Shown here piece after piece: positions 3,346-15,194 of a stretch of 64,000 nt of DNA. The number at the start of each line of letters is the position of its first letter. Position 1 is the stretch's first letter. The notes under the pieces were generated by a model. That model was given only the letters and a program-made list of their open reading frames with translations. It was not told the origin of the DNA and ran no database searches. Source of the stretch: Bryoerythrophyllum caledonicum (taxonomy: Eukaryota > Streptophyta > Bryopsida > Pottiales > Pottiaceae); NCBI GenBank assembly GCA_963971425.1, contig OZ020521.1:25746012-25810011 (forward strand). Reading direction: 5' to 3'. A program made the translations under genes and the position numbers.

Positions 3346-3636
3346 ATTCTCCCCCCGCCTCGATTTTCATGACTACTTGGTTTTAAGGTTTTTGACTACT
3401 TGCCTGGTTTGTGGTTAGTTCGTTGGTTAATTGCCTGGTTTTTGATTGGTTGGTTGGTTGGTTGACTTGTGGTTCTTTGGTTCCTTGTTACATAGTTTCT
3501 ACCCTCGAGAGAGGGAAGTAGTTCCAGCTCACTAATTCCTTGTCCTTTGGGCATAATCTTAGTAGTGGAACGAACAGACACTTTATTCACGCCGGCCTCC
3601 TTCGGAGACCGGCGTTCTTCTTCTTCTTTGGTAGCT
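3346..3636 (+). other. LINE A 3' UTR and TTC-repeat tail
   Basis: Non-coding sequence after the ORF2 stop. The stretch from about 3485 to 3630 matches the 3' end of copy B (15368-15513): a CTCGAGAG-centred short hairpin, the phrase GAACAGACACTTTATTCACG, a GC-rich hairpin, then repeated TTC. Between 3375 and 3480 there is GGTTGGTTGG-type low complexity that copy B lacks. The shared block ends at the TTC run in both copies, which fixes the LINE 3' terminus. Confidence 0.75.
3590..3614 (+). other. 3'-terminal hairpin of LINE A
   Basis: An 11-bp stem with a TTC loop immediately before the TTC tail. One position (C opposite A) is unpaired. Relative to copy B (15475-15499), a C-G pair is replaced by T-A with pairing kept. 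LINEs of the stringent type use a 3' stem-loop to recruit their reverse transcriptase, so this is the likely recognition structure. Confidence 0.65.
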
Positions 3637-5462
3637 CTTGATGCATTTACAACAGATATCACCTCAAGACCGAAAGAAGGCCTCAGCAAACCAGATCCAA
3701 TTGCACTTGCACAAAAAAGAACGCACAACATCAGAAGACGAACAAGATAAGGACCGAATCCCAATGGAGGACCATAACGACTACTGCAAGGGCTAAAAAG
3801 AAGACACAAGTAGTTTTTACTACTTACGAATATATCGACAACCTCAGAAGGTGCGACAAAGTTAATGTAGGCGGAGAGACCCAAGCAGAGCACTCAAAAA
3901 AACTACACAAGACACGGCTACACAGAAGACACTCGACACTATCGCTACAGCTACACCGAAGCACACATAGCATCCAGAAAAACAAAGACAAGCACAAGTG
4001 CCAAAGACGACAACCACAGGTACAGGGACATCAAGACAACTACCAGAAGACAGGACGATCTTCACGAGCACGAAGATAGAACGACCCTCCACGAACACGA
4101 AGTCAAGACGACCGCCCACGAACATGAATATAGAACGACCCCCCACGAGCACGAAGACAGGACGACTCTCCACGAGCAGGACGTTCTACCAGAAGATAGG
4201 ACGATCTCCAGGATCAAGACAGCGACCCTCCCCAAAAAACTCGAGCCCCAGCCATAGAAGACAGCGACCAGAGAAGACATCACATAGACCGAGACCGAGC
4301 TCGCAGCCTCCTTCAAACAACCCAACATTCGACGTCTCGCTCGACTCCTCGCTCAACCCCTAGCCCGACCCTACGACCCCTTGCTCGAAGCCTGAGGCCC
4401 CACGGTCGACGTCTGCAACCCCACGCACAAAGTCTCCAATCCTCACCCTCGACCTATACCAGCCAGTGTACCACGCACCCACAACCCAAGGCCCAAGCAC
4501 AAGGGCAGGAATCTGCCCGACTGACAAGACGCGCAATGCAGACCCCAAGAGTATACATCAGATACGTAAACTTAATACAAATCTCTTATGCACGACTCAA
4601 GCTTGGACAACAAAAACCAACACTGAACGTGGACAACACAACCAAGATACAAGAATCTCCGACAACAATACAAAGGAACGAGAGCTCCGCCGTCCCTCAC
4701 CAAAGACATCACACACAGAAGGACGTGCAACATCGGCTAACTCACAAAACACAAGACAACTACTCCAACCTCACCCGCAACATACAAGATCACAAAGGTA
4801 AGCACACTCTTTACACCTCCACTAATCAAAAGCGTGCAGGTGAGAAAAAAACTCCAAGGGCGGCCGAAGTCTAGGAACCCTCAGACGAGAGCCACAGACA
4901 ACCTTATCGACGCAGTACAGGTACAAGAGAATCCACAAGCAGATACAGCAGTAGCTCGCACAAAGCCGCACGCCGAAGATCACATTACGAACTCGAGAGC
5001 AAGAGCCCGGGACCAAGACAGGCGAGACACAAGTCTACAGCTACGCAGGAGAGACACAAGTCGACAGCAACGAAGGCTAGTACAAGGCAACATGCACGAG
5101 CCGAGAAGTAGAGCTACAAGAGAAGAGCAAGGCCCTTGGAGACAGCTAAGGCAGCTCCTGAGAGAAGCCCAGGGCTTTTGAAGGGAGCCAGGAGACAGAA
5201 GATAAGCGACGAGGGAGCAACCCACGGGAGGAAGGCAGATCGTCTCCAACCAGCCCAAGAGCCCCATATTATACCCAGGGCCCCTCCTCTCAAGACGAGA
5301 AAACAACTCACGACATTATACTAGGCCGCCATAGAGGAGCAGCCCTCGAGTACTATAGGCCAAGTCAAGTCACTTCGAATATCCATCAACCCTCCCTCCA
5401 GACCCCAGGTAAGTCTCCTCACACTCAACCACGCTCTTTCACATCCTTGGATCAATCTAATC
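3637..5462 (+). other. Probable 5' leader of LINE B
   Basis: About 1.8 kb without a convincing gene, lying between the tail of copy A and ORF1 of copy B. Short ORFs on both strands have low-complexity translations. The sequence is rich in CAAGACGA-like and CACGAGCACGAAG-like words. I see no TATA box that I would defend. Some of it could be host sequence or another element, because the left edge of copy B cannot be fixed without a second copy. Confidence 0.4.
4045..4190 (+). repeat. Imperfect tandem repeat, CACGAACACGAAG-type units
   Basis: At least five adjacent units of about 21-24 bp, each close to CGACCCTCCACGAGCACGAA, with scattered substitutions. They lie within the probable LINE B leader. 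Tandem monomers in 5' regions are known from some LINE families, where they can act as promoter units; that role is speculative here. Confidence 0.65.
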
Positions 5463-7106
5463 ATGAGCAACAGAAGAGGTATCGTATTCGACGAAGCAAT
5501 GGACGTTGACGACATGACGGTGCATCAAGTAGCAACCCCAAAAGAAAAAGGTTCAAGGATAAATACGGACGAAACCGGCAGCAGTAAGAAGAGCAAGAAC
5601 TTCCAAGAAAACAAAGGTAAGTTCACCAAACCACTACCACTAACTTCATACCTAAATTTATGGCTAGGTTTTGAAGTTATGGAGCGCATAGCGATGGAGA
5701 AAGGTGTGGAAGCCCCTACAAGTAACGAAACCAAAGAAGACAAGGTATCCAGGGGATTCAAAGCCAATGAAGCCGAAGAGGTAATGGAGGCTAGGGAGGC
5801 CTTCCCACGTATCCCCCAACTTCTATACCCTTGCAAGAGAAGAGGAGCACAAGAGCAACACTACAACATCACCCAAATCCCGCAAGACATCAAGATCAAT
5901 GAAGCCACAGGTTTGGCCTTGGACTTCCACATTGCTATCTTTTTCAAACCTCCCACCAATGTTATGTTGCATGATGATGTATACAACATAATAACTAGAA
6001 GATTAGAAGAAATGGACATTAAACTAGGCACAAGTTTGATTGATCCAATCTACATCCAATGTCATAGTGTCAAAAGAGGAGGTCAAAAGGGGGTATGGGC
6101 GGGGATGTTTAAATTGCACCTTCTTAATCCCAACACGGATGGTCTCATGCTACTTAAAGGCCTAAGGCCCTTCATACTAGTGATAGATAATCACAAGATC
6201 ATTGGTAAAGTATGTAAGACCTATCACCACACCGCTAACGCCACTAACCTCTCCGTGCGCATTAGAAGTGATTCCTTGATAGGTACCCCGGCTCACCAAC
6301 TTTTCATGGACATCCTCCACAATAGCTTCAACCGAGGCCAAGACTTCAAGGTCACTGGAGTGCAAAAGGTCACAAGTGATCCTTATGCCTTCGTCTCCAC
6401 CACCACTTTACAACAAGCCTTGAAGATCCAATTACAACACGTTACAATCCAACACGAAGTCCTTCAAGCAAAGAAAACCTACACCGGGGGGCATATGACA
6501 CCTGAAACAAAGGCAAAAAAGGATGCCCTCACTCTTACCCTATCTCTCTTGCCTATTCTCATGAGTGTTGTCGATACCACTAATGCCATCTACAAAGTTC
6601 TAGGAATTGATAATACTAAGAGCATATGGTTTCACAAGGAGAATGGTGAAAGGCATAATGGGAGTGCAAATGTGGAATGTACTAACCCTATCGTGTATAG
6701 GAAGTTCGTGAAGAAGACAATCAAGATTGGAGATAACCATGTGGACTTTGCCCTACACCGAAGAAGCTTGGAAGGAGTGGAACCTCCAACCCAAGAACAA
6801 GTTGAAGGTTTTGGGTTCAACGACATCAACACCGCCATGGTCAATACCGTTGCAACATTCAAGATTCAAGACACCCCCACCTCCACCAACACCAACGTCG
6901 CGAAGAAAGACCTGGAAGATGCATTGGAAGAGAACAACAAGAAGATGAGGAGAGAGAATAGAAAGTACACGGATAAGCTCCACGAAGAACTTGTTGCACA
7001 AAAGGAGAACATACAAAATTCCATGCAAGCCACCATCGAAGCCATAAGAGCCATCAAAGGGAGTGTAAAACCAAGACAAATTGAAGACATACCGCCAAAC
7101 ATGTGA
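5463..7106 (+). CDS. LINE B ORF1 protein, 547 aa, candidate RNA-binding/gag-like
   Basis: An intact 547-codon ORF from an ATG to TGA at 7104-7106, directly upstream of the ORF2 region and in the same phase as ORF2 (frame 0). The N terminus is acidic (MDVDDM) and followed by a Lys-rich stretch. The centre (about residues 130-320) is a globular region I cannot name, with FHIAIFFKPP and FILVIDNHKIIGKVCK. The end (about residues 475-530) is charged and heptad-like, a plausible coiled coil. LINE ORF1 proteins commonly trimerise by coiled coils and bind the element RNA, so position and architecture fit that role. No CCHC knuckle is visible. Base composition is ordinary, unlike the extremely A/C-rich ORF2 that follows. 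It is intact while ORF2 is broken. Confidence 0.6.
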   Translation: MSNRRGIVFDEAMDVDDMTVHQVATPKEKGSRINTDETGSSKKSKNFQENKGKFTKPLPLTSYLNLWLGFEVMERIAMEKGVEAPTSNETKEDKVSRGFKANEAEEVMEAREAFPRIPQLLYPCKRRGAQEQHYNITQIPQDIKINEATGLALDFHIAIFFKPPTNVMLHDDVYNIITRRLEEMDIKLGTSLIDPIYIQCHSVKRGGQKGVWAGMFKLHLLNPNTDGLMLLKGLRPFILVIDNHKIIGKVCKTYHHTANATNLSVRIRSDSLIGTPAHQLFMDILHNSFNRGQDFKVTGVQKVTSDPYAFVSTTTLQQALKIQLQHVTIQHEVLQAKKTYTGGHMTPETKAKKDALTLTLSLLPILMSVVDTTNAIYKVLGIDNTKSIWFHKENGERHNGSANVECTNPIVYRKFVKKTIKIGDNHVDFALHRRSLEGVEPPTQEQVEGFGFNDINTAMVNTVATFKIQDTPTSTNTNVAKKDLEDALEENNKKMRRENRKYTDKLHEELVAQKENIQNSMQATIEAIRAIKGSVKPRQIEDIPPNM

Positions 7107-7691
7107 AGACCAAAGACCACACGGTAAAACATACTTACCATAGTTATAATTCCTTATACCATAGATTATTAGAAATACACAAGTACAGAAATACGCTATA
7201 CCAATACTGTACTGCTATATTTACTCAATACAATCACCGTATACTACACACATGGTCCAAGACATACATAAATACATACATATACACACATATATATACA
7301 TATATATATACAAACATACATACACGCATATACACATACACAAGCATACATACACATACATACACATACACACATACATACACACATATATACACGCACA
7401 TAATCATACACACACCAATAAATATACAAGCATACTCAAATACATACATACAAACAACCACTCATACATACACTCACATAATACAAATAAAAACAAACAC
7501 ACAAACACATACACACAAACACATACAAGGACACAACCACATACATACACCAAATACACATTCAAATACACACTCCACCTCCACACACACAATCACATAA
7601 ATCAACACAAACAACTACACACAAACCCACATACATATACACATTTAAATACATCAAAACAAACATACAAACACTCACACACCCACACTAA
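7107..7691 (+). repeat. CA/TA-rich low-complexity linker between ORF1 and ORF2
   Basis: Mostly ACATACATACACACATA-type words. Long ORFs on both strands are translations of microsatellite (Tyr/Thr/His/Ile on +, Val/Cys/Tyr on -) and are not genes. In the phase shared by ORF1 and ORF2 there are stops at least at 7170, 7269 and 7689. After 7692 that phase stays open to 8795, although the DNA remains A/C-rich until about 8130. Confidence 0.75.
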
Positions 7692-8117
7692 TATAAAAAA
7701 ACACAAAACAAACCCACAAATAAGCATAAACACCCATCCATACAAACACATCTACACAACCAAACACACATACACAAGCCCAAACTCACACATAATATAT
7801 ATACGCACATACACACACAAACAATTACATATCCATACCCACAAACTAAAACCAACACATACACAACCTCAAAGACACATACAAAGCATTACCAAAAAAA
7901 CATATATAAACAAACCCTAAAAAAAGACATAAAAAATACACATCCAAACATAACATTTAAAACCACAAACACGAACAAAACAACAACAAACCCCACAAAT
8001 AAAAATTCATACACATACACAAACAAAAACACTAAAACCAAAAACACAAAAACACGGAAATTCCCAAAATATACACACAAACCTATAACACAAAAACAAA
8101 AACAACATATCAAACCC

Positions 8118-8174
8118 TTATACTATATAACCCTAATAATACTAAGCAGGGATGTAGAAACCAACCCCGGACCC
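8118..8174 (+). other. 2A-like (CHYSEL) ribosome-skipping peptide
   Basis: The 19 codons read LYYITLIILSRDVETNPGP, with a Met codon at 8175 straight after. This matches the 2A consensus D-V/I-E-x-N-P-G-P exactly. It also has the hydrophobic, helix-prone stretch 2A peptides need upstream. In known 2As the ribosome fails to join Gly to Pro, so two proteins come from one frame. It lies in the same phase as ORF1 and the rest of ORF2, in a frame open from 7692. No in-frame ATG is apparent between 7692 and 8175. 2A-like sequences have been reported in LINEs of trypanosomatids and some animals. Confidence 0.85.
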
Positions 8175-8798
8175 ATGGCCAATATACTAAAAAGACACCC
8201 CACAACACATAAAAAAAATGCCAAAACCTACTTTATACCAAACACCATCAAACTACAACCAGAATACAAACATATTGCAGGGACATTTGCACCCCTCCTA
8301 AAAACCACGCACACATTACACCAATTACATAACACAATACATCCAAGCATTGCCCAATATATACAACAAAAAAATACACACCCAACAACACACATACTCT
8401 ACGCCTTAGTGATTACCATACACCCTAATCCCAACGAATGTAATAGAATTATGGAACTACAAAACCCAAATATAACCACATGGACTAACAAACTATTACA
8501 AACTCTATCAAATTTACAAAATCCACCCGAAAGACACATTAACTTCCCACACCCTTACACAACATTTCTGGAAAACAACCTAAACATCATAAACCATAAC
8601 ACATCAATAAACAAAGAATTATATGACTTCATACATAACCAAAATACACCTCCATCAAATGCCACGATAAAACAAAAATTCCCCTACCTCCCAAACACAA
8701 TAATAACTGAATCACTAAAGTGCCTAAACCTCCTCCCGGAATACACTCATCCACCCCCACCGCCGAACCACATCCCATCACAAAACCATACCCCTTAA

Positions 8799-9620
8799 AG
8801 GAACAACAATAACACAAGCATAATAACATGGAACGCCTCATCTCTCAACACCGCACTCCCAAACTTACAAAATATAGTTTTACGCACTAACACACCACCG
8901 GCACTCATAGCTATACAAGAAACAAAAATCTCGGCCACAAAATCCACAAAATATATACAACGACTATTTCCCGACTATAAACTCATCTATAATAACACAC
9001 ATGCTCTAACAAGATGTATACAACAAAGAAGACCATATACACCTGGTCGAGGGGGCCTCTTCACCCTCATACACAAAAACTACGCATTTTTAGGAAATAT
9101 CAAAAAAATCCCCACCCCGATGAACATATCCCCATACTTACAAATTATAGAAATCTCCAACCTTCCACTTCAACCTTGGCTAATCCACCATATATACATG
9201 CCGTCCTACCCCGAAGACATAAGACTCATCGTAGACATCAAAACTAACATCACCACTTATACTACCAACAACCCCAACCCCAACCACATTCTATGTGGTG
9301 ACTTCAACAGAGACATTGCCCTCATAGGAAGACAAAACCGAAACCAACATACACCAACACAAATAATAGACCTACAATGGAAACAATTTACAGAAGACCT
9401 AAACTTTAACTACATACCCACAAACACTACATACTCTAGACAAGGAGGACACAACTATAGTGACTGGAGCCTAATTGATGGATTATACATCCGTGCGACA
9501 AACCATAATACATTCTTTTCCACAACAAATAATGACATCCACCTAAACTCCGATCACTCACCCATACAACTACATATCCCAAACAACACACTCATAAATC
9601 GTACACCAACCACCACAACA
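8799..9620 (+). other. APE-type endonuclease domain of LINE B
   Basis: Begins with ITWNASSLN (8823 on). It contains IAIQETKI with the metal-binding Glu (8916-8930), GRGGLFTLIHK, CGDFNRDIALIG (GDFN at 9297-9308) and SDHSPIQ (9549-9569). These are the ordered motifs of the exonuclease III/APE fold that nicks target DNA for target-primed reverse transcription. The domain is open in one frame after the TAA at 8796. Confidence 0.85.
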
Positions 9621-10079
9621 AGCAACAACCACATACGCATCTTTAACCCAATCCCACAAACCAACATAGAACTATTCAACACAAAATTCTTCGAGAAAAA
9701 CTCAACTCGCATCGATTCCTTAATCAATACATTAGAATCTAATCACCTTTCCCAAACACAATGGCAAGAAGCCTGCCACACCCTAGATATACTCATCAAC
9801 AACATATCCAATATAATAGAACAAACCTGCAAAGCCCAACCCTTACCACAAATGACAAACCGAACGTCACAACAAGGTGGATACTTACCCCGCAAATTAT
9901 CTAAAACATGGAAACAACACCTTACCATATACCACACTATACGGAAAACCATAAGAACCGTAAAAAACAACCCCCAATGGTGAAGCCACCCTATCCTCAA
10001 CGAACTACAAAACCTTCAACACACACAAATCCCAAATCCACCCCCCATACATCTATCCCCCGACACATGGTTAAGTAAT

Positions 10080-11876
10080 ATGGCACTAATTGCAAAAAAT
10101 GCCAACACTCAAGCTCGAAAGATCACCACTAAATATGCTCAAGAAAACATTAGAAAAGCCATTTCAAAATACAGACAACTATGTGAAACCAATCCCAAGA
10201 AAATAAACAGAAGAATATTCAAAACTATGGAATCCCTACCATTGAATTGCATCACAGATCAATACAACATACTAACCAGCCCAGAAGACATTGCAAACGA
10301 AATAGTTAACCAACAAACAAAAAGCAATAGACCTACAATAGAAACATGCTACTATCAACCGGACCACCCCATAATATGTACATGTGCAGTACGACAACCA
10401 TGGCATGACCTCGACGGATTCACATTAGAAAAAAGAGGAGACCCAGATACCCCACTACACACATACTTTACCCAAGCCACATATGACAATTGCCTACTAA
10501 ACCTAGGAAATAATAAGGCTCCCGGACCGGATCGCATACCAAACTCTATACTAAAAAATATGCCCCCAAGGTTCTACAAACTACTAAACCTATTTTTCTC
10601 CCCCTGCTACAAACAAAAAGAAATCCCTGCTTCATGGAAAACAAGTACAACAATCTTACTATACAAAAAAGGAGATCCATCCATACTACCAAATCATAGA
10701 CCCATTGCATTAGCCAACACCATATATAAACTATTCACAAGTACACTCACATCAATACTCTCATCATACGGCGAAAAATAAAAAATACTCCATGATTGCC
10801 AAGAGGGGTTCCGCGCAGAAAGAAGCACCGCTAGACAAATCCAAACACTGATAGCCACATTGGAAGATGCACGCTTTACAAATCAAGACATATTCATATT
10901 GTACATAGACTTTAAAAACGCCTTCGGATCTATCGATCATGCTAGACTCTTAGCCATAATGACGGACCTCGGATACCCCAAAGACGCCACCACACTAGTG
11001 GATAATATATACTCGGAATCCTCAACCTCCTACATAGGAGAACACTTTGGAAAAACTACACTCATAGCCATCCAAAGGGGAACAATACAAGGTGATACCC
11101 TAAGCCCATATTTATTCATCATATTCCTAGAACCACTACTTAGATGGCTAGATAGAGGCAATAATAGATATACATTTGGGACATCACAAACCACCATCAA
11201 CTCCACGGCATACGCAGACGACCTTGCGGCCATAACCAACAAAATTAAAGATATCAAAATACAACTTAACAAAATAGACAGATACTGCAAATGGTCAGGA
11301 ATGGATGTAGGTGTCCCAAAATGTGCAGTCACTGGATGCCCAAATAAATCAAAAACAAATCCCACCGCATTCAAAGCTCTAATACAAATCTCTAACATTA
11401 ATTACCGAAACCAACCAATACCCGTATTACACCAAAATGAACCATACACATATTTAGGAATAAATCTCCTCCCCTCCCTAAAATGGAAAACCCAAATCCA
11501 TACCACCACCAAAAAATTAATCAAACAATGCAAAGAATTAGTAGCTTGCCCGGCCACTATGAAGCAAAAAATAAAAATGATTGACACGGTACTAAGACCG
11601 GGAGTGGCATACAGCTTCTACGCGGTACCATACTCAATGCCCGCCATAAAAAAATTAGACAAAAAATTAACGGCCACACAAAAAACCATATGCGGCATGC
11701 CAAAATGTATGTCTAATATAATAATCCAATTGCCACACAACCGCTTTGGACTAGAAGCTTTTTTGCTAAAAAATGTATACCTTAGATGCATAGGAGAACA
11801 ACTACAGAACGTCCTAAATGACAATGGACGACTCCGAACAATATATAGGGGCCTAATACACCACATCCTTGCCTAA
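10080..11876 (+). other. LINE reverse transcriptase domain
   Basis: Ordered RT motifs are visible: NKAPGPDRIPNSILK (near 10512), PISLAN-like HRPIALANTIYKLF (near 10695), EGFRAERSTARQIQTL (near 10807), YIDFKNAFGSIDHARL (near 10902), GTIQGDTLSPYLF (near 11080), and the catalytic AYADDLA box (YADD 11211-11222). This is a classical non-LTR RT. A TAA at 10779 lies between the finger and palm motifs. Confidence 0.9.
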
Positions 11877-13096
11877 TACGGGGGAGGGGGCCGAAAACAT
11901 ACCTAGAATAAAAAAGACGAGTTGTACAAGATCACCAATAACACATACCTTCTTCTTACTAAAACACGTCGCAAAAGTCCACCTAAAAAGTAACCTTGCC
12001 AACTTTCTCATAGAACGAACAACACTAGAAAAAACCTGGACTCTCGAAACACAAAACCATAATTCACTCAACACACAATTATCTCAAAAGTTATTACAAA
12101 AACTCCTATCAAAAAACATCTATGAGCTAAAACAAATTTCCCTACCTAATGGAACACACATCATGAACAATGAAGAGTTTAAAAAATACCACTTCACCCC
12201 ATCAAAACTAATCAAAAGTGCACTCAAATAGCACGACAACTCTTTTGCCACCCAATATACCCCCCCACACACTAATAATAACAACACACATACATACTCC
12301 CATACACTTAAAAACCCATTCATCACTATAAACAATGACACCACCCCAAGAAATACCCCCCCACCACCGATTCATCCTCTCATCTCCCTCCCACGCTACC
12401 CTTTCCCCCCAAACTACATCCTCAAAAATCCCACCACATATCCCATAGACACCATCATACACCACGAACATAGAGAAAAAATAGATAATAACCAAATTGA
12501 AAATAAATACGCGAGATATTTATGCCAATGGGACCACAATAATAACAAATACAACAAATGGCTCCCCCAAAGAAACCTCTTCCCAAGACACAACCAAAAC
12601 ACCATCACACACACAATATCAACAAATTGACACAATATTACCAAAAAACTCAACATAAATTCTACTCCGAAATTATCCTAGCTCACCATCCACAAAGCCA
12701 ACCCCAAGATACAAGATCCATCACCCCACCCATAAGAATCCCCCTACTAAACATGGATACAACGGAATGTAACCCCGATAAAGACATCCTCACCTCACCT
12801 AATACAATCAAAACAGACAAAGACCAAGTACACCTATACGAAGAAGATGGAAGACACCTCTTTACCATCCCCACCACTAGGCTCATATGGTTATGGAACC
12901 AATATAACACTAAACTACAAAACCCTACAAACATTGAACCTATAACCCAATCATTTGAAACCGAAATCATTTGGCTATACCAAAGATATAAATATAAAAT
13001 ACCAAAAAATAACCCCCTTAAACTTACACAATATACACTGCCAACACCGATACTAAACTCATTAATTTCAACGTTCAACATCCAACAATCATACTT

Positions 13097-13415
13097 CTCC
13101 TCCCCCGTCACATGCCCCATCACTCTTAACAAATTTTACTCCCCCTTCGAAAGAGATAAAATATTCGGTTCACTAGGTAAAGCCTTTGACTACAAATGGA
13201 TAGGCAATGGCATAGCTCACCCTCACACTGAAGAAGAAACACTACAAGCATTACATTGGGCCCGCCTTGCAGCCCAAAATGATCCAAACCACACCTCCAC
13301 TATCATCATAACACCAGACAAAAACTGGTACCAAAACCTTAATCCACACTGAGGCCCTTTCCCGGACTCACACATCATAGCACTATTCGAAGCGGACTCA
13401 CTAACATACGAAGAA
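13097..13415 (+). other. LINE B methyltransferase-like domain
   Basis: The counterpart of 1246-1570 in copy A: SSPVTC, FERDKIFGSLGKAFDYKWIG, GIAHPHTEE, ALHWARLAA, TIIITPDKNWYQ. A TGA follows at 13350. The core residues are conserved between the copies while the flanking sequence differs. The fold assignment is tentative. Confidence 0.4.
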
Positions 13416-13730: not shown

Positions 13731-14160
13731 TACTACACAGATGGATCCTTCAAAGAACCAGTAGAAAGTAGCCCTGGACACTCGCAGAGAGAAAAAGCCG
13801 GATACGGCATATATAATCCCATCAAAGAAATCAAACTTGCCAAAAGACTACATGGACTTTAAAACATCATCAGAGCAGAGATGATGGCCATACACAAAAC
13901 ACTCCAAATCATCAACAGACAATATGCCAACGAACCCGCACATATCTTTACGGATTGCATCAATGTCCTATATTTACTAAACACACAAATAACTCACCCC
14001 ACTCTCCACAATAGTCACCCCGACAAAATAACACTAATGTCCATGGTACAAATGCTTCAAAATCGAACACAACCTACTACACTCCACAAAGTTAGAGCCC
14101 ACGCTAACATAGAAGGCAACGAACAAGCCGATGCACTAGCCAAAGAAGGAAGAGAAAAAT
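13731..14160 (+). other. RNase H domain of LINE B
   Basis: YYTDGSFK (13731 on) supplies the first Asp, RAEMMAIHKTL the Glu, IFTDCINVLYLL the second Asp, and HKVRAHANIEGNEQADALAKEG the last His/Asp motif. A TAA at 13859 stands where copy A has a Gln codon in LHGLQN. RNase H removes the RNA strand during element replication. Confidence 0.85.
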
Positions 14161-14514
14161 CACATAAAAATGCCAAAGATCCACATGAGCATGCACATGC
14201 CACCCCATACTACTTCCAAAAAGAGGATTGGCCCTCCAAAGATGACACCCCGGACAAAGGCCCGGTCCGATTTTTGGGAAAATATCTCAAAAAACAAGAT
14301 ACATACAACGACATCGAAACAATCTCAGAAAACTTCCCTAACATAGAAAAATGGACCGGCAATAATAATATAGACTATGAATTATCTACAAATTTCTGGA
14401 AAAATCCCACCATTACCGATTCACAAATTACATGCCTCATCAAATTCCGCACTGGTCAATACATGGGAAATGCCCGTAAACAACTCTTCTTTGGAATAGA
14501 ACGCTTCCCATCCA

Positions 14515-15194
14515 TAACATGCCCCAGATATACCTCTACAGACCCAGACACATGGCTGCATGTCCTACTAAAATGCCAAAACCACCACATACACTCCCTC
14601 ATTGTTAAAAGACACAACAAAGCAGTATGGGAAATCCGAAAACTAATTACCTCACATAGTAAATCTCGATGCTTCATACTCATGAATGTCGGCACTTTCA
14701 ATAATAACCCCCAAGAAAACACTGTTCCATCCTGGCTACTCCCATGTACATGTGCAACCCAACGATGTCACTGTAATGCTAGATTTAAACCCGACATACT
14801 TTGTGTAAAAGGCCTACCATACAACGACCCACCACCCACCCATGTTGATCCAAACTATACCATCCAATTTATAGAATTCACGTATTGTAACGACAGATTC
14901 TCACTAGAAACAATAGAACACAAAATAAATAAATATCAACCTGTCATCGATGACATTAAAAACCTCGGATGGAAAATCGACCCCCTCATAGTCATCACGG
15001 TTGGTGCCCGCACCACAACCTACATCCCTCCCATGAACACCCTTGAAGAAACTTTCAAAATTCCCATGAACACAATTAAACATACCTTCAATAATATTAA
15101 CACCATCGCAATCCAACATGCTATGTCCATACTTTTACATAAACGGAAAATAGAGAATAACCAAACCCTCCCCGATCCACATGACACACCATAA
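14515..15194 (+). other. CCHC knuckle and PD-(D/E)XK-like C-terminal domain of LINE B
   Basis: The knuckle region (14515-14580) is followed by VKRHNKAVWEIRKL; R2-like elements carry a comparable CCHC then RH(N/D) arrangement just before their nuclease. Copy B has lost the second Cys (CPRY instead of CPIC). A second Cys/His cluster (CTCATQRCHC) precedes RFKPDILCVKG and YTIQFIEFTYCNDRF, then a Lys-rich helix with KYQPVIDDI, then GWKIDPLIVIT. PD...E-x-T with a downstream Lys/Tyr helix is the outline of a restriction-like endonuclease. The spacing from PD to E (about 26 residues) is longer than in R2-type nucleases, as I recall them. Confidence 0.55.

Follow-up and report, generated by a model that had tools for sequence, protein, structure and literature searches.

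The window, by which we mean the whole stretch of 64,000 nucleotides analysed here, carries a LINE whose second reading frame (ORF2) is preceded by codons for a 2A (StopGo) peptide. This raises the question whether the peptide acts as a ribosome-skipping site and, if so, how ribosomes arrive at it. The explanation that best accounts for the comparisons below, and that we consider quite probable, is a working 2A that forms the N-terminal boundary of the ORF2 protein (ORF2p) in an extensive clan of Dualen/RandI-like LINEs, the host being photosynthetic and probably a green alga. The features of the element are listed here with their positions in the window; L018 and L024 are related copies in the same genome.

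5325..7106, + strand: ORF1, open frame from stop to stop, with the stop codon at 7104-7106; no Pfam family at E 0.001
7085..7600, + strand: frame -1 to ORF1, overlapping the end of ORF1 by 19 nt; broken in the spacer in the window, reaching a 2A in L018 and L024
7094..7100, + strand: candidate -1 shift heptamer GCCAAAC at the end of ORF1 (CCA AAC ATG TGA), a prediction only
7107..8117, + strand: low-complexity spacer from the ORF1 stop to the 2A; 3.5% G, no AUG in the 2A frame
8118..8174, + strand: 2A (StopGo) peptide LYYITLIILSRDVETNPGP, 19 residues, with separation expected between G and the last P
8175..8795, + strand: post-2A domain of ORF2, about 207 aa, starting with Met after NPGP; closed by an in-frame stop of the decayed copy
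8799..9980, + strand: APE endonuclease part of ORF2 (Exo_endo_phos, weak, E 1.2e-5)
9984..11873, + strand: reverse transcriptase (RT) region (RVT_1, E 9.9e-24 on 10782-11873); stops at 9981-9983, just before it, and in frame at 10779-10781
12546..13349, + strand: PCIF1_WW-like domain of ORF2 (E 4.2e-12)
13863..15191, + strand: RNase H (PF00075, E 6.1e-9), followed by KPD...E and RHN motifs

The 2A peptide and its recurrence

The peptide was found at 8118-8174, exactly where the original prediction had placed it, and NPGP occurs a single time across the six frames of the window. The codon that follows directly (8175-8177) encodes the first Met of the frame from 7692 to 8795; this frame had been predicted to be open from 7692 with no Met before NPGP, which the translation bears out. 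The core reads DVETNPGP in the window and DIETNPGP in most copies seen, and the cores of window and copies fit the StopGo motif (D/G/C/N)(V/I)ExNPGP as given in PMC12846837. The activity of 2A peptides is context-dependent. A lead-in rich in Leu and Ile was present at 10 of 12 sampled genome sites, the departures being L040 and the broken L042; in Haematococcus the lead-in is mostly similar to WLLLAAGD.

Recurrence was assessed in the 437-Mb genome (894 contigs). A DNA pattern encoding D[VI]ExNPGP matched 877 + 837 = 1714 sites, compared with 2 + 0 sites for the pattern read backwards and none for a reversed-peptide pattern. All 12 sites sampled for codon diversity, which had been chosen by the 2A motif itself, belong to one LINE clan and have the 2A directly before MP[NS] or MRN, followed by the same domain. 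A less biased tally started from the downstream pattern MPNxLKxHP, which matched 786 + 800 = 1586 sites (control 0). Among the matches listed for contig 1, a canonical core stands immediately before this pattern at 63 of 98 sites (100 were listed, and 2 outside the range of the 2A listing were dropped). Copies of the clan are spread over many contigs. The 2A marks the N-terminal edge of a LINE ORF2, and it is found again in several families and in Haematococcus.

Two families were collected by DNA similarity alone, and these fetched copies were inspected for loss of NPGP and for ancestral stops near it. In the window's own family (copies 91.7-95% identical) NPGP is kept in 7 of 7 rows, the window plus L023-L028; L027 equals L028 over the 1300 bases compared, so that six distinct copies are represented. 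In a young family, which has two 2A sequences per copy, the second is intact in 12 of 14 copies. The ratio pN/pS was 0.053 in the 2A core versus 0.61 before it and 0.28 after it (15 copies), a value biased by the choice of 10 of these copies by motif. A claim of strong purifying selection from these ratios was reduced to weak support, most copies being motif-chosen.

Skipping itself is very likely, judging from the motif itself, from its return in families that have diverged at silent sites, from its position straight before ORF2p and from the open frame upstream of it in well-preserved copies. A ribosome in the ORF2 frame that reaches NPG/P would release the upstream product, either a low-complexity leader or ORF1 plus leader, and would continue past this point to make an ORF2p with the defined N-terminus Pro-Met. 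NPGP could instead be conserved for a structural role at the N-terminus of ORF2p, with no part in recoding, and the same domain does follow it at the 12 sampled genome sites; this reading is very improbable, since the octapeptide, often with its Leu-rich lead-in, recurs across relatives while the flanks change, and since the core fits the published StopGo motif (PMC12846837). Chance or an assembly artefact in a single pseudogene, to which the decay of the window copy might point, is refuted by the 1714 sites versus 2 in the control, by the copies on many contigs and by the relatives in other organisms.

Each copy of the young family has a pair of modules, separated by about 1.3 kb; the 2A of the first reads DIENNLGP in 14 of 14 copies, that of the second DIETNPGP in 12. 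DNA identity to the window is 81.5% for the first module plus ORF1 and 75.2% from the second module onward; with its first module nearer to the window than the second, the young family appears to have been joined from two families. A decayed upstream 2A with an intact downstream one was also seen elsewhere (upstream GRDIGTIPGP in L049+L039 and GGDMETNPRP in L051+L044), and in P0003, a database protein, the upstream motif reads NPGE and the downstream one NPGP. Among the 15 module pairs found in those listed, the 2A is kept downstream only in 10, upstream only in 1, in both modules in 1 and in neither in 3, that is, in 2 of 15 upstream versus 11 of 15 downstream modules (Fisher p 0.0025, which overstates independence because 9 of the 15 tandem pairs share a spacing of 509-511 nt and are probably one family). 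The pattern fits a need solely for the 2A that stands directly before a functional ORF2p, and such modules offer a ready-made natural experiment.

Element anatomy and relatives

Decay of the window copy shows in three in-frame stops (8796, 9981 and 10779) and in a frame change farther on. Its domain set is unusual, comprising APE, RT, a PCIF1-like domain, RNase H and a motif like that of restriction-like endonucleases (RLE). In a search of solved structures the window RT matched R2 and then L1. A further fragment of this LINE clan lies at 1-1380 of the window and is 90.9% identical to L018 8621-10000. In a young copy (L030/L018/L029) the ORF1 frame is open to 2607 and the ORF2 frame for 3124 codons; it has a weak chromodomain match (E 0.011, below the cut-off), and its version of the post-2A domain gave sub-threshold Pfam matches only. 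Upstream of the first Met of its ORF1 frame, about 792 codons are open without an in-frame AUG (L030/L018, -1409 to 966 relative to L018).

The C-terminus of the young copy has the CxxC...HxxxxC-like, RHN and KPD...E motifs common to its relatives, and the RH, PDI and E columns are invariant across 6 aligned C-termini. We take the set of KPD...E and RHN motifs to resemble that of restriction-like endonucleases; in comparisons of this region with solved structures a profile reached R2 only at E 0.38, and a single-sequence search gave RNase H alone. Between RT and RNase H, a PCIF1_WW-like domain was seen at 12546-13349 of the window, at 9000-9998 of L018, in P0002, P0007, P0012 and P0023 and in others. 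PCIF1 is a cap adenosine methyltransferase with the motif NPPF; this motif was not seen in the LINE domain, whose activity is therefore doubtful. A literature search pairing PCIF1 with retrotransposons found nothing of apparent relevance.

Dualen/RandI LINEs are described as having an APE plus a PD-(D/E)XK-like endonuclease (PMC3636483) and an RNase H (PMC4640811), with green algae as hosts (PMC8226300). In the window, APE lies N-terminal to RT (Exo_endo_phos and RVT_1) and RNase H (PF00075) is present. As APE, RLE and RNase H together make up the Dualen/RandI set, the element is called Dualen-like here, being set beside Dualen by descriptions rather than by named sequences. The host is a photosynthetic eukaryote, with light-harvesting-complex genes on large contigs (58 matches to PF00504), and its rbcL proteins look streptophyte-like. 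Three rbcL genes were also observed on the small contigs C590, C821 and C894; one is clearly unlike the other two, and they perhaps represent a plastid and a second organism.

Protein searches with this ORF2 and two relatives returned Haematococcus lacustris proteins and database contigs that are mostly metagenomic by source. Among relatives in which an APE was located and is preceded by 650 residues or more (a limit of our choosing), 25 of the 37 from Haematococcus, which include many near-copies, have a 2A core before the APE, as do 10 of the 43 from other sources; the remaining 33 lack the canonical core, so the 2A is not essential to the wider clade. One of the ten, P0089, has the variant core GDVHPNPGP, and a 2A with His at p14 is reported as active in PMC12846837. 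The domain after the 2A varies, being OTU in P0007 and a sub-threshold Josephin match in P0003, and Josephin is annotated in many Haematococcus relatives; in the present clan it is the post-2A domain listed above. Josephin, OTU or PF02902 domains (the last presumably of the Ulp1 type) were seen in the LINE ORF2 relatives P0003, P0007, P0022 and P0048, and lie between 2A and APE in P0007 and P0003; a search for literature linking Josephin with non-LTR retrotransposons gave nothing of apparent relevance.

In a quick RT tree of 118 rows, which came with long-branch warnings and included 8 hand-picked Haematococcus rows, the element groups at SH-aLRT 98 with 100 proteins from Haematococcus and the database. 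Presence of the 2A is scattered over this tree, with at least 9 changes forced by well-supported branches, although absence is often mere truncation. A core SGIESNPGP was also observed at residue 1406 of P0190, a retroelement protein of the pseudoscorpion Cordylochernes scorpioides.

Reading frames and entry into ORF2

The original prediction stated that ORF1 of the window (stop at 7104-7106) and the 2A frame share one phase, which is correct, and proposed that in intact relatives ORF1 and ORF2 could form one frame from which the 2A releases ORF2p, or that the 2A could free a short leader. The release of ORF2p from an upstream translated part is kept here in conditional form; the single frame is abandoned, since L024, the young family and further families have ORF2 in the -1 frame, overlapping the end of ORF1. 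The overlap is 19 nt in L018, 19 in L024, 16 in L049, 37 in L040 and 112 in L050; overlapping ORFs in -1 phase were likewise found in the window, but not in L053. Indels in the spacer are the simplest account of the shared phase of ORF1 and 2A in the window.

From the end of ORF1 through the live 2A, the -1 frame is stop-free in L018, L024, L050+L036 and L040. In the young family, 9 of 14 copies keep it open past the dead first 2A and through the live second; the other 5 are not open through an intact live 2A. The live 2A lies about 1.03 kb from the ORF1 stop in L024 and 2.3 kb in L018. Spacer stops number 0 in the 2A frame versus 29 and 23 in the other two in L018 (counted up to the first, dead 2A; part of the off-frame excess comes from an (AAT)n repeat, which gives TAA codons in one other frame), and 0 versus 15 and 14 in L024. 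In 11 of the 14 young copies the 2A frame crosses the spacer of about 1 kb without a stop; the spacer is about 4% G. In L024 a stop follows about 40 codons past the 2A. Exceptions to the -1 layout are L053 (phase 0, with stops between), L038 (a stop 13 codons past the supposed shift) and L049 and L054, each of which needs an additional shift. A spacer frame free of stops back to the end of ORF1 would be sensible if ribosomes read the spacer.

ORF1, polyQ, 2A and ORF2 stand in a single open frame in L048+L045 (C1:3985800-3990211), where the 3' end of ORF1 is missing and a run of 94 Q lies between ORF1 and the 2A. The sister locus L038 keeps the ORF1 3' end and the -1 phase, so that L045 is read as a secondary deletion. 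An ancestral single frame from ORF1 through the 2A to ORF2, considered from L048+L045 and from 61 of 61 match pairs in the same phase (where the scoring apparently used one frame per candidate, with phase 0 built in, and where the length of an open frame is not the same as a stop-free frame), was rejected: the junction of one such locus, L053, has four stops in that frame. Long CAA, AAC or AAT microsatellites, encoding polyQ, polyN or polyT, were observed before the 2A in L038, L045, L050, L053 and L054.

The sequence at the end of ORF1 was compared between loci. G[CT]CAAAC lies 2-4 codons before the ORF1 stop in 7 of 15 stretches scanned (window, L018, L024, L038, L049, L050 and L054), with 21 occurrences in 51,409 nt overall as background; at the same position L040 has GACAAAC and L053 has CTCAAAC, and each of the nine loci with a visible ORF1 end has CAAAC just before the stop. 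The recurrence is a lead rather than proof, as the families share ancestry. A canonical XXXYYYZ slippery heptamer was not found, and GYCAAAC, GACAAAC and CTCAAAC do not fit that form. Folding after the candidate shift site, calculated for non-pseudoknot folds, is weak in L018 (z -1.73) and L024 (z -0.87); in L040 a hairpin covers the site (z -2.61).

On these sequence features we tentatively favour a -1 shift at the end of ORF1, perhaps at the recurring (G)YCAAAC, as the way in which ribosomes would enter ORF2, with a confidence somewhat short of even. There would then be two serial recoding steps, a non-canonical -1 shift at (G)YCAAAC and StopGo about 350 codons later (770 in the young family), the latter discarding the ORF1-spacer part; this fuller reading we hold a little more loosely. 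If true, it would amount to a strategy of Gag-Pol type but lacking a protease, used by a clan of giant algal LINEs with more than 1700 2A sites in one genome.

Alternatively, ORF2 may have its own AUG upstream of the 2A, which would just trim an N-terminal leader, with no frameshift involved; in the trypanosome element L1Tc the 2A removes an N-terminal leader. We regard this as possible though rather doubtful. In-frame Met codons are indeed found upstream in L036 (-67 codons), in L044 (-77 and -119) and in L018 (one in the spacer, at 3519, 42 codons before the dead 2A and 466 before the live one), and the 2A lies at residue 22 of P0129 and residue 50 of P0138, both predicted proteins. L024 and the window, however, contain no in-frame AUG from the end of ORF1 to the 2A, the position of the upstream Met is not conserved, and a leader begun near the 2A needs no stop-free frame of about 1 kb back to the ORF1 stop.

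It is unlikely that ribosomes ending ORF1 re-initiate on a -1 codon overlapping the stop (GUG in AUGUGA), in the manner of SART1, and then read the spacer and the 2A. The -1 phase and the overlap at the stop codon match the requirement of a stop-start mechanism, a coupling described for SART1 in PMC5972666, but an AUG is lacking and the overlap codon varies (GUG in L018, L024 and the window, UUG in L049, CUA in L050 and L054), whereas the CAAAC before the stop is kept in all nine loci seen. Re-initiation and an own AUG both concern how ribosomes reach the 2A, not whether the 2A skips. LINEs of this kind are a direct route to testing how ribosomes reach a LINE ORF2, a long-open question.

Comparison with known systems

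That LINEs can contain 2A peptides is already known: Heras et al. reportedly described one in L1Tc of Trypanosoma cruzi in 2006, and Odon et al. are said to have found 2A/StopGo peptides in APE-type LINEs of multicellular organisms in 2013. These elements reportedly resemble the present one in being LINEs whose 2A is in frame with the encoded proteins. Unlike them, it combines APE, RNase H, a PCIF1-like domain and an RLE motif in a photosynthetic host, and its 2A closes a spacer frame that is in -1 phase to ORF1. The LINE group and the layout look new; a non-exhaustive search found no report of a 2A in Dualen-like/RandI or green-algal LINEs, and the Rao 2025 survey of eukaryotic and viral 2A could list algal cases.

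According to PMC12846837, StopGo is for the most part restricted to viral decoding and very rare in the coding sequences of cells; the same survey found no evidence that plant viruses use it. With 1714 2A-encoding sites in one photosynthetic genome, and with 2A in chlorophyte and metagenome relatives, LINEs would be a large natural reservoir of 2A in photosynthetic hosts. The element shares APE, RNase H and a putative PD-(D/E)XK-like endonuclease with Dualen/RandI (PMC3636483, PMC4640811); the descriptions given in these sources and in PMC8226300, with which the comparison was made, mention no 2A. Like the theiloviruses (cardioviruses), which use StopGo and -1 frameshifting, two recoding events per mRNA (PMC5009743), the element may combine both. 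The theilovirus frameshift lies just downstream of StopGo (PMC5009743), whereas the supposed shift here precedes the live 2A by about 1 kb in L024 or 2.3 kb in L018 and would serve entry into ORF2. In SART1 and in mammalian L1 re-initiation, ORF2 is likewise reached by ribosomes coming from ORF1 (PMC5972666); SART1 has an overlapping stop-restart site and L1 an ORF2 AUG (PMC5972666), whereas neither L024 nor the window has an AUG in frame ahead of the 2A.
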